Source of the DNA: Daejeonella lutea
GTDB taxonomy: Bacteria; Bacteroidota; Bacteroidia; Sphingobacteriales; Sphingobacteriaceae
Assembly: GCF_900168015.1 (NCBI RefSeq)
Contig: NZ_FUYR01000001.1
Span: 1,114,943-1,178,942 of the forward strand
Length of the DNA: 64,000 nt
Direction of reading: 5' to 3'
Shown here: in pieces, positions 13,154 to 38,928 of the stretch
Layout: every line of letters starts with the position of its first letter
Numbering within the stretch: position 1 is the first letter of the stretch
Made by a program: the position numbers and the translations under genes
Notes under the pieces: model-generated
What the model was told of the DNA's origin: nothing
Databases searched by the model: none
What the model saw: the letters and a program-made list of their open reading frames with translations, nothing else

Positions 13154-15547
13154 CTATGACGAGCAAGTCACGCACCCTTCATCCATACTGCAGCTCGGGC
13201 CACTGACGATTGAAGGTTCAATTCCTGCAATATCATTTTTACTTGCGTCCTCTATAATCGGAACGAGTGGCTCCATGGTTTTGCCGCCTTGCTTTTCAAC
13301 AGTAAACTGTACCGCCTTACTGGCAGCTTGAGTGCGCAAATAATACATCCCCGTTTTCAAACCTTTCTTCCATGCATAAAAGTGCATGGAGGTCAACTTC
13401 CCTGTATTTGGATTATCCACAAACAAGTTTAAGGATTGTGACTGACAGATAAATGCCCCGCGATCTGCTGCCATGTCTATCAGGTTCCTTTGTTTAATCT
13501 CCCAAACGGTTTTATAAAGCTCCCTGATCTCAGCAGGAATAGCCTCAATATGCTGTACAGAGCCATTCGCAGTAATAATGTTATCCTTCATCGCATTATT
13601 CCATAAACCCAATTGTACCAGATCCTTTAAAAGATGTTTGTTTACGATCACGAACTCCCCGCTAAGGACCCTTCGCGTATAAATATTGGAGGTGTAAGGT
13701 TCAAAGCATTCGTTGTTTCCTAAAACCTGGGACGTTGACGCAGTTGGCATGGGTGCAACAAGCAATGAGTTCCTTACACCATACTTGATCACCTCGGCTC
13801 TCAGGCCTTCCCAGTCATACCTTTCTGAAGGTTTGACATCCCATAAATCAAACTGAAATTTACCCTGAGACAGCGGTGAGCCTTGAAAAGTTTCATATGC
13901 CCCGGTTTCTTTAGCAAGATCCTTACTCGCGGTCATCGCCGCAAAATAAATCGTCTCAAAGATATTTTTGTTGAGCATTTTGGCCAGTTCACTTTCAAAG
14001 GGCAGGCGCATAAGTATAAAAACGTCAGCAAGTCCCTGCACACCTAACCCAATAGGCCGATGGCGCATATTCGATCTTCTGGCTTCTTCGACTGGGTAGT
14101 AGTTATTGTCGATGATTTTGTTGAGGTTTTTGGTCGCCTGATAAGTGATCTGGTAGAGTTTCTCAAAGTCGAAACTATTATTAATTACAAATCTTGGCAG
14201 GGCAAGTGAAGCCAGGTTACAAACCGCAACCTCATTTGCATCAGTATACTCCATAATCTCCGTACACAGGTTGCTGCTTTTGATAGTACCAAGGTTTTGC
14301 TGATTGCTCTTACTATTCGCGGCGTCCTTGTAAAGCAAATAAGGTGTTCCCGTTTCGATTTGCGCGTCCAAAATTGCAAACCAGAGTTCCTGAGCTTTGA
14401 TAGTTTTACGGGCCCTTCCCTCTGCCTCATACTGGTGATACAAATTTTCAAATGCTTCACCATGGCATTCGTGCAGTCCCGGTGCCTCATGCGGACAGAA
14501 CAAGCTCCATTCCGCATTCGCTTCTACCCTTTTCATAAACAGATCAGGCACCCACAACGCGTAAAAAAGATCCCGGGCCCGCATCTCTTCCTTGCCGTGG
14601 TTTTTTCTCAGATCTAGAAATTCAAAAACATCGGCGTGCCATGGCTCCAGGTAAATTGCGAAAGCACCTTTTCGCTTCCCTCCGCCCTGATCGACATACC
14701 GTGCTGTATCATTAAACACTTTTAGCATCGGGATGATCCCATTACTCGTGCCATTCGTACCACCAATGTAACTTCCTGTGGCGCGGACGTTGTGAATCGC
14801 AAGTCCAATGCCGCCTGCACTTTGCGAGATCCTTGCCGTTTGTTTTAATGTGTCATAAATGCCGTCTATACTATCGTCTTTCATCGCCAGCAGAAAACAA
14901 GACGACATTTGGGGCTTAGGTGTACCCGCATTAAATAAGGTGGGGGTTGCGTGGGTAAACCATCGCTCACTCATTTGATTATAAGTATCAACCACACTCT
15001 CTATATCATCTTTATGGATGCCAATTGCTACCCGCATATACATGTGCTGAGGCCGCTCTGCAATTTTTCCCTGAAGCCTAAGCAGATAGGACTTCTCAAG
15101 TGTTTTAAAACCAAAATAGTCAAAACCAAAGTCCCGATCATAAATGATCGAGCTATCGAGTATCTCTGCATTATTTTTTATAATCTCTATGACGTCATCA
15201 GCGATGAGCGGCATTCTTCGTCCGGTATGCTCATCTGTATAGTTATACAGTTTTATCATCGTCTCAGAAAAAGATTTCTCCGTATTCTTATGAAGATTGC
15301 TTACTGCTATTCTGCTAGCCAGCAAGGCATAATCAGGATGTTTAGTTGTCAGGGAAGCTGCGGTTTCGGCGGCCAGATTATCAAGCTCAGTAGTGGTTAC
15401 TCCATCAAAAAGCCCTTCAATTACTTTTTTTGCAACATCGATCGGATCAACCAATTGACTTAATCCATACGACAGTTTTTGAATCCGCGCAGTTATCTTA
15501 TCGAACTTGACACTTTCAAGTTTTCCGTTTCTTTTGTGTACGTACAT
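13154..15547 (-). CDS. nrdA: Class I ribonucleoside-diphosphate reductase, alpha (large) subunit
   Basis: A 797-aa catalytic subunit that reduces ribonucleoside diphosphates to deoxy forms. An ATP-cone allosteric domain occupies roughly residues 1-90 ([17 protein letters not shown] start). The radical site is complete: Cys in MSSCFLLAM, the NLCTEI Cys/Glu pair and the second redox Cys in VAVCNLASL. The tyrosine dyad for radical transfer is in GMYYLRT. A C-terminal CVTC pair shuttles reducing equivalents. It follows nrdB by about 100 bp on the minus strand with no terminator seen, so it is probably in the same operon under the cobalamin riboswitch. Confidence 0.96.
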
Positions 15548-15651: not shown

Positions 15652-16620
15652 TTAAAAGTCCTCTTCCAAGGAAAAACTCTGCGTCTCTCTGCCGGAAAGC
15701 ACGCCTGATTTTTGATAGTCTCCCACCCTTTTTTCAAAAAAGTTAGTTTTCCCCTGCAGGGAGATCATTTCCATAAAATCAAATGGATTTGAAGCACCAT
15801 AAATCTTCGAATAACCTAATTCGTCGATCCAGCGATCGGCTACAAATTCGATATATTGCTGCATGAGCTTTGCATTCATCCCAATTAGGTCTACAGGTAA
15901 AGCCTCAGTGATAAATTCTTTTTCAATTTCAACTGCATCCCGAATTATCGAATGAATTTGTTCTTCAGGCAACTTGTTTGACAGCATCCTATAAAGCATA
16001 CAAGCAAACTCGCAGTGTAAGCCTTCATCACGGCTGATGAGTTCATTGCTGAATGTAAGTCCCGGCATCAGGCCGCGTTTCTTAAGCCAGAAGATCGAAC
16101 AAAAGCTCCCGCTAAAAAAAATTCCCTCCACAGCTGCAAAAGCAACCAGGCGCTCAGCAAATGTGCCGTTATCTATCCATCGAAGCGCCCATTCAGCCTT
16201 CTTCTTAACAGCTGGAACCGTATCGATCGCGTGGAAAAGATGATCTTTTTCCATGTTGTCCTTAACATAAGTATCGATCAGCAAAGCATAGGTTTCCGAA
16301 TGGATATTTTCCATCATAATCTGGAACCCATAAAAACAACGAGCTTCAGGAACTTGCACCTCACTCATAAAATTCACTGCCAGGTTTTCATTGACAATGC
16401 CGTCGCTTGCTGCAAAAAAGGCTAGAATATGGGAAATGAAATGACGTTCTCCCTGATTTAGGTTTTCCCAGTCTTTGAGATCGCCCGACAGATCGATTTC
16501 TTCAGCTGTCCAGAAACTGGCTTCATGTTTTTTGTACATCTCCCAAATCTGGGGATAGTTGATAGGTAGGATCACAAAACGGTCCTTGTTCTCTTTTAAT
16601 AATACTTCTTCGTGTTGCAT
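15652..16620 (-). CDS. nrdB: Class I ribonucleoside-diphosphate reductase, beta (small) subunit
   Basis: A 322-aa ferritin-like subunit that houses the diiron-tyrosyl radical. Iron ligands are visible in [19 protein letters not shown] and the later [18 protein letters not shown] helices. The tyrosine in IHSETYALL fits the radical tyrosine of class Ia enzymes (H-x-x-x-Y spacing), so it should be the Tyr type rather than the Phe-bearing class Ic. First gene of the nrdB-nrdA-CWC unit. The 110 bp before the ATG form the expression platform of a cobalamin riboswitch, which implies repression when B12 is available. Confidence 0.96.
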
Positions 16621-16690
16621 ATCTTATGTTTTTGTGGCGACAAGAGATGACAAAAGGCAACATTCCTTCGAAGAAAATGGGCGGGCTTTT

Positions 16691-16733
16691 GCCAAAACTT
16701 TAGTCGTGAAAGTTTTGAACAAACTATTTTGGC
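16691..16733 (-). promoter_or_regulatory. Putative expression platform of the B12 riboswitch
   Basis: Two mutually exclusive helices can form here. AAAACTTT (16694-16701) pairs with AAAGTTTT (16709-16716) around a 7-nt loop. Alternatively GCCAAAA (16691-16697) pairs with TTTTGGC (16727-16733), whose last bases are the end of the B12 box. Competition for 16694-16697 would couple ligand binding to nrdB expression. No U-run follows the hairpin, so transcriptional termination is not obvious and the mechanism is inferred only. Confidence 0.5.
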
Positions 16734-16870
16734 AGGTGTCTGGCTTTCCGGGGTATGAGGCATGAGGTATGAGGTATTAGCGCATCGCCAATACCTGAAA
16801 CCTGACACCCGAACCCTTAGATTACAGTTGCACGTCAGCCCGTGATTTTCACACGGTTCCCTTTTAATTG
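16731..16870 (-). promoter_or_regulatory. Cobalamin (B12) riboswitch of the nrdBA operon
   Basis: Read on the minus strand from about 16868, the leader contains the conserved cobalamin aptamer blocks in order: AAAGGGAACC, then GTGAAAATCAC, GGCTGACG, GCAACTGTAA, and the 3' B12 box AAGCCAGACACCTGCC ending at 16731. The variable arm between ACTGTAA and the B12 box (16751-16810) is a long hairpin: 16801-16810 pairs with 16751-16760 (nine pairs, one mismatch) and encloses a second stem. The riboswitch lies about 110 bp before nrdB. Known biology: B12 riboswitches shut off B12-independent enzymes when a B12-dependent isozyme can work, here presumably class II NrdJ elsewhere in the genome. Confidence 0.9.
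16751..16810. repeat. Heptad hairpin in the riboswitch variable arm
   Basis: Plus-strand units GGTATGA (16752, 16766), GGCATGA (16759), GGTATTA (16773) form the left arm. AATACCT (16790), GAAACCT (16797) and GACACCC (16804) form the right arm. The tips GGTATT and AATACC pair. This is the only heptad array in a 5' leader in the window. Confidence 0.65.
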
Positions 16871-16963
16871 TCCGCCATGGGCGAACAAACCTGGATAGTT
16901 TATGTAAAAGAACTTATGGACTAAAAGTAGAAGTTAAATCGCTTCACCGCACTTTTAAGTTTT

Positions 16964-38859: not shown

Positions 38860-38901
38860 GGTCTGAATGAAAACGATTAACTTGACTAGTTTTCTCAGAC
38901 C
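38860..38901. terminator. Hairpin at a convergent gene junction
   Basis: GGTCTGA (38860-38866) pairs with TCAGACC (38895-38901), and inside it GAAAAC (38869-38874) pairs with GTTTTC (38889-38894), a 13-bp stem with a 2-nt bulge and 14-nt loop. It lies between the convergent anti-sigma and PliI-like genes. The right arm is part of a heptad array. There is no clean U-run, so strength is uncertain. Confidence 0.55.
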
Positions 38902-38928
38902 TCAGACCTCAGACCTCAGACCTCAATT
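38894..38928. repeat. Perfect heptad array CTCAGAC x4 overlapping a stop codon
   Basis: CTCAGAC is repeated exactly at 38894, 38901, 38908 and 38915, followed by CTCAATT (38922). The stop codon of the minus-strand PliI-like gene (38923-38925) is inside the last unit. Confidence 0.7.

Follow-up and report, generated by a model that had tools for sequence, protein, structure and literature searches.

A cobalamin riboswitch upstream of class I ribonucleotide reductase genes in Daejeonella lutea and related Sphingobacteriaceae

A cobalamin riboswitch is located in the leader of the nrdBA operon of Daejeonella lutea, and we consider it highly probable (roughly 85%) that this element represses the class I ribonucleotide reductase in the presence of B12. 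Both the response of nrdB to B12 and its OFF direction are inferred. The genome also encodes a B12-dependent reductase, so that the spare class I enzyme would very probably be switched off when B12 is available.

A cobalamin riboswitch precedes nrdBA

We searched the whole 64-kb stretch of DNA under analysis (hereafter, the window) with cmscan. Three Rfam matches were obtained, two of them tRNA-Leu genes and the third a cobalamin riboswitch (RF00174) on the minus strand at 16714-16909, which scores 60.1 bits (E = 2.2e-12; gathering threshold 31.5 bits) and spans the full model from position 1 to 189. A preliminary description made from the sequence alone had proposed a cobalamin riboswitch on this strand and named an Rfam search as the check, which it passes. 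The range given there, 16640-16870, does contain the blocks that were named, but it is displaced by about 40 nt toward nrdB, omitting the 39 nt at the 5' end of the aptamer and including most of the expression platform 3' of it.

A gap of 93 nt separates the end of the aptamer match from nrdB (15652-16620, minus strand), the gene for a class I small subunit of 322 aa (PF00268, 397 bits), which places the riboswitch directly upstream of a B12-independent isozyme. The order is nrdB and then nrdA (13154-15547, minus strand), which encodes the class I large subunit of 797 aa with an ATP-cone (TIGR02506, 751 bits, over the cut-off; PF02867/PF00317). A promoter scan found no sigma-70-type site, for which the consensus is not known to fit the host's phylum.

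All conserved blocks of the aptamer had been described as present, and this stands for P1, the core and the B12 box. The 5' strand of P1, AAACTAT (16895-16901, minus strand), pairs perfectly with ATAGTTT (16721-16727), as read directly; the conserved core GCAACTGTAA occupies 16822-16831 on the same strand; and the B12 box AGCCAGACACCTGCC, which the preliminary description had also assigned to the minus strand, was located at 16731-16745 both in the cmscan alignment and in the sequence itself. Elsewhere the aptamer deviates. The strand AGCCA-GACACC is one base short relative to the Rfam model in the cmscan alignment, and loop L5 (16830-16835, minus strand) reads ACGUGC, which is non-canonical and not of the CCCCG type. 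Full cobalamin aptamers carry a peripheral P8-P11 arm; in its place the window has a variable arm (16747-16821, minus strand) that includes part of a dispersed repeat of CTCATAC heptads.

Three of the six matches to this heptad in the window fall within the arm, and nine further partial matches lie at about seven sites in the genome. Tandem CTCAGAC heptads at 38894-38922 (plus strand) resemble the repeat in the arm. The same arm holds other simple repeats in relatives L108 and L067 and is short in others, as if it were a tolerated landing site.

A class II reductase and a B12 receptor are encoded in the same genome

The preliminary description predicted a class II NrdJ elsewhere in the genome and proposed a search for btuB. 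The genome, at 4.03 Mb and 99.98% completeness, does contain the B12-dependent isozyme: nrdJ is located at G000:C8:469515-471755 (579 bits with the pieces joined, against a cut-off of 400) and encodes a 1126-aa protein, in an open frame of 1132, that contains PF08471, the N-terminal domain of class II enzymes. The class III gene nrdD had no match in this genome. Two cobalamin riboswitches score over threshold in the genome, namely the one before nrdB and a second one, at 99.5 bits, which ends about 100 nt upstream of a TonB-dependent receptor gene. The best family for this receptor is the B12 receptor TonB-B12, with 274.5 bits and under the cut-off of 599.7, and we call the gene btuB-like. For the corrin-ring gene cobJ/cbiH the genome has two matches, which score 43 and 28 bits and fall short of the cut-off of 246; B12 is therefore probably taken up and not made. 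A DUF6580 protein (PF20221) is encoded about 0.8 kb 3' of the btuB-like gene (L006 9272-9802, minus strand), and a link with B12 uptake is possible.

The riboswitch recurs in relatives that also carry nrdJ

We examined 80 related nrdB loci drawn from genome records. By cmscan, 17 of them have a cobalamin riboswitch immediately upstream of nrdB and in the same orientation; a regular-expression search for the aptamer, which recovered 3 of 80, was too strict and was replaced by cmscan. Two further loci of the 80 have a cobalamin riboswitch upstream of nrdB on the opposite strand (L015 803-1035 and L024 848-1062, minus strand). An nrdJ gene over the cut-off is present in 46 of the 80 genomes: 16 of the 17 riboswitch genomes and 30 of the 63 others have it (Fisher p = 5.8e-4). 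The single riboswitch genome in which nrdJ was not detected, that of L014, is a 2.6 Mb metagenome assembly.

A leader model, R1, was built from eight sequences including the window, which match it by construction, and was run on 399 sampled genomes of the family with Infernal's stricter filters, because of which absence of a match is no proof that the leader is absent. The family is that of Mucilaginibacter limnophilus and Paradesertivirga mongoliensis, recognized by identical nrdJ coordinates in G337/G210 and G011/G169, and NCBI assigns both species to Sphingobacteriaceae. The leader was found in 46 of the 399 genomes and is followed by an in-frame NrdB start in 44, the other two sequences ending or not being read. 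Among leader genomes 45 of 46 have nrdJ over the cut-off, compared with 96 of the 353 others (p = 7.7e-22; G139, with its nrdJ divided between two contigs, is scored as nrdJ-negative). The one leader genome in which nrdJ was not detected, G376, shows the weakest match to the leader. The association holds inside two genera: in g15 the leader occurs in 19 of 60 genomes with nrdJ and 1 of 45 without (p = 8.7e-5), and in g19 in 9 of 11 and 0 of 7, respectively (p = 0.0023). These within-genus tables are the only control for phylogeny, no tree being used and relatedness being uncorrected beyond the genus, and the 80-locus and 399-genome sets overlap and are not independent (the genome of L026 is G011 and that of L067 is G337).

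Conversely, 96 of the 141 nrdJ genomes of the family have no detected leader. The nrdJ genes of the family are of two types, one of about 860 aa (851-880) and one of about 1100 aa; the leader was found in none of the 25 genomes with the short type only, whereas 45 of the other 116 nrdJ genomes have it. Taken as a comparison of gene content, the co-occurrence of leader and nrdJ supports a functional coupling of the two. In one relative a match to the Flavo-1 sRNA family (58.1 bits) lies 3' of nrdB at L031 2579-2655 (plus strand).

L5 and L13 vary together

The P13 hairpin occupies 16693-16717 on the minus strand, and CACG in its loop L13 (16705-16708) is complementary to CGUG of L5. Among 23 nrdB riboswitches there are seven L5 sequence classes, and the complementarity of L13 follows the L5 class; of 5040 permutations of the classes, 4 reach the observed value. 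Runs of four or more contiguous Watson-Crick pairs can form between L5 and L13 in 16 of the 23 own pairs, against 16 of 400 cross pairs, a count that keeps two of the 23 sequences (L051 and L083) for which the wrong hairpin was picked. By these comparisons, the predicted L5-L13 kissing loop is non-canonical but covarying.

A three-strand expression platform

We identified three strands that can pair in alternative ways, all on the minus strand, one just 5' of P13 and two between P13 and nrdB. The 5' switch strand GTTTGTTC (16717-16724) can pair with the middle strand GGCAAAAG (16686-16693) to form helix H1, which extends P13 and has one bulged U. The middle strand can instead pair with the 3' switch strand, GTTGC plus CTTTTGTC (16649-16661), to form helix H2, and the 3' strand has the start-codon region as its other possible partner. 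Across the leaders, the middle strand reads GRCRAAAG and variants just 3' of P13, and the 3' strand CUUUUGUC is nearly invariant.

Both helices were evaluated in 41 of the 46 leader sequences; L138, L148, L154, L156 and L158 were omitted, with the 3' strand not located or the contig ending. H2 is 94.6% paired with 14 distinct pairs (shuffled, 92.0%, with 18 of 5000 shuffles reaching the observed value; slid, 49-67%), and H1 is 71.7% paired with 30 distinct pairs (shuffled, 69.9%, 30 of 5000; slid, 32-61%). There is thus comparative support for both predicted helices, that for H1 being weaker than that for H2. Because the 3' strand is nearly invariant, the support for H2 consists mostly of conservation together with G-U/A-U changes. 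Two-sided changes occur as well, for instance in L131, which has GAUAAGAG with CUUUUAUC, and in L125, which has GACGGAGA with CUUCUGUC. A hairpin between the 3' end of the B12 box and the strand after P13 (GCCAAAA/UUUUGGC) appears in the window's free minimum-energy fold and in several sequences; it was set aside, and H1 and H2 preferred, because it is not kept across the set.

In single-sequence folds of eight leaders, four (the window, L106, L107 and L110) pair CUUUUGUC and the preceding GUUGC over AUGCAAC, the start of nrdB, and the other four fold differently. A start was found in 44 of the 46 sequences (not in L148 and L156), and in 32 of these 44 the pairing of the 3' strand with the start touches a base of the AUG. 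Measured against dinucleotide shuffles, covering of the start codon in these 44 sequences does not go beyond what composition gives (mean z -0.62; 7 of 44 sequences below -1.65; window +0.14). For the window, the calculated energies are -19.9 kcal/mol for the H2 state, -18.9 for the start-covered state and -20.7 for the unconstrained minimum. The difference of 1 kcal/mol between the two end states is small enough that a ligand could decide between them. No Shine-Dalgarno sequence is evident in the window's nrdB leader, and the phylum Bacteroidota makes little use of such sequences. The conservation of the three-strand platform suggests translational control, and we judge the translational platform as drawn, with its three strands and covered start codon, to be a little better than an even bet.

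Proposed mechanism and alternatives

Repression by bound B12 most likely acts at translation, a preference that rests on analogy with E. coli btuB as presented in excerpts of PMC10653944. Ligand binding would close the L5-L13 contact and stabilize the extended P13 (H1). Formation of H1 would free the CUUUUGUC strand to base-pair over AUGCAAC at the start of nrdB and so turn translation OFF. When the ligand is absent, the middle strand would take CUUUUGUC as its partner (H2), and the start codon would stay open, with translation ON. With B12 present, the cell would rely on NrdJ, supplied with B12 imported through the BtuB-like receptor.

The same riboswitch might act with the same sign on transcription, through premature or Rho-dependent termination in a pyrimidine-rich leader. 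The region from P13 to the start is indeed pyrimidine-rich in the eight aligned leaders, and the pairing over the start codon is not distinguished statistically from composition; however, the minus strand has no intrinsic terminator-like site between 16500 and 17100, and the strongest conserved feature 3' of P13 is a strand switch and not a stem followed by a T-run. We regard transcriptional control as unlikely, with perhaps one chance in a few.

Control in the opposite sense, with the riboswitch activating nrdBA in the presence of B12, is quite improbable. A corrinoid-activated riboswitch is known, that of A. halodurans cobT in the excerpts of PMC10653944. In the window the 3' strand of P1 overlaps the 5' switch strand, so that P1 could block H1 and favor the open state, but the two strands lie next to each other in some relatives, L119 and L120 among them. 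Moreover, repression is the expected sign where a B12-dependent isozyme is present in the same genomes, and in one relative a cobalamin riboswitch is also found before a metE-like gene, metE being the other classic B12-independent isozyme. That the element is a decaying, functionless relic is the least probable reading and very doubtful: it scores 60.1 bits compared with 99.5 for the btuB copy, its arm carries a dispersed repeat and a decayed-looking aptamer exists in the same genus (G231), but the window has P1, the core, the B12 box, L5-L13 and the switch strands intact, and five nrdB riboswitches of the genus, whose non-canonical L5 is matched by L13, all score low (36.8-66.5 bits). Repression of nrdBA by B12 remains the reading that we favor.

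Relation to known systems

The preliminary description had appealed to an established precedent for B12 riboswitches before class I reductase genes, and such a precedent is found in Streptomyces. According to excerpts of PMC4991794, which cites Borovok 2006, Streptomyces coelicolor has a B12 riboswitch before its class I genes nrdABS and also carries nrdJ, an arrangement like that described here. S. coelicolor is an actinomycete whose nrdABS operon includes an extra regulator, whereas here nrdB is followed by nrdA and control is modelled as translational. In delta-proteobacteria with nrdJ, B12-elements before nrdDG were proposed from comparative genomics (excerpts of PMC545781), and riboswitches before nrdD are reported for Chlorobium (excerpts of PMC8620254); these cases resemble ours in that a B12-independent reductase is predicted to be repressed by B12, but the target in them is a class III enzyme and here it is class I (PMC545781, PMC8620254, as excerpted).

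As to mechanism, the excerpted PMC10653944 describes E. coli btuB and env8 as translational cobalamin riboswitches in which L5-L13 stabilizes P13 and, through it, a structure that prevents initiation. We propose the same role for L5-L13 and a block of initiation in the nrdB leader; relative to the excerpted account of btuB and env8, the L5 of nrdB is non-canonical and matched by L13, and it is the AUG region that we propose to be blocked. Among the literature titles and abstract openings searched, none dealt with cobalamin riboswitches upstream of the class I nrd genes of Sphingobacteriaceae, and a search pairing cobalamin riboswitch with Pedobacter found nothing. B12 riboswitches that control a B12-independent reductase are already known, and the present case is a clear and recurrent form of it with a distinctive leader. 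If our reading is correct, the choice of ribonucleotide reductase in these bacteria would be set by the B12 in their environment. The leader alignments lend themselves to the study of B12 riboswitch action in bacteria that are sparing of Shine-Dalgarno sequences.

Class I and class II reductases in the genus

We compared the two classes of reductase in 20 genomes of the window's genus. An nrdJ gene was found in 19 of them (18 over the cut-off and the one split over two contigs in G139) and not in G114, whereas class I nrdA was found in 8 (G000, G056, G067, G077, G092, G109, G119 and G231), a count taken from the weaker cross-match of the nrdJ search and read with some of the other 12 assemblies being incomplete. 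This is an unusual balance. With class I in 8 of 20 genomes and nrdJ in 19 of 20, class I looks like an accessory enzyme in the genus and class II like the standing one. Rfam finds the riboswitch before nrdB in six of the eight class I genomes and none before nrdB of G056 or G231. In G231, R1 detects the platform, and the aptamer reads as degenerate; G056 has both class I and nrdJ, but no riboswitch was found in it by either Rfam or R1.

A broader reading would join these observations. Class II would be the everyday reductase, and class I an optional aerobic back-up, in parts of Sphingobacteriaceae; a lineage-specific three-strand riboswitch would cover the start codon directly, independently of a Shine-Dalgarno sequence; L5 and L13 would have drifted jointly from their customary sequence; and the switch would be kept almost only with the long nrdJ of about 1100 aa. 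As a whole we offer this tentatively, at somewhat less than even odds. In G077, of the same genus, a third cobalamin riboswitch (L105 1501-1695, plus strand) lies before a gene at 1839 that we call metE-like from sequence resemblance and not from a family search.
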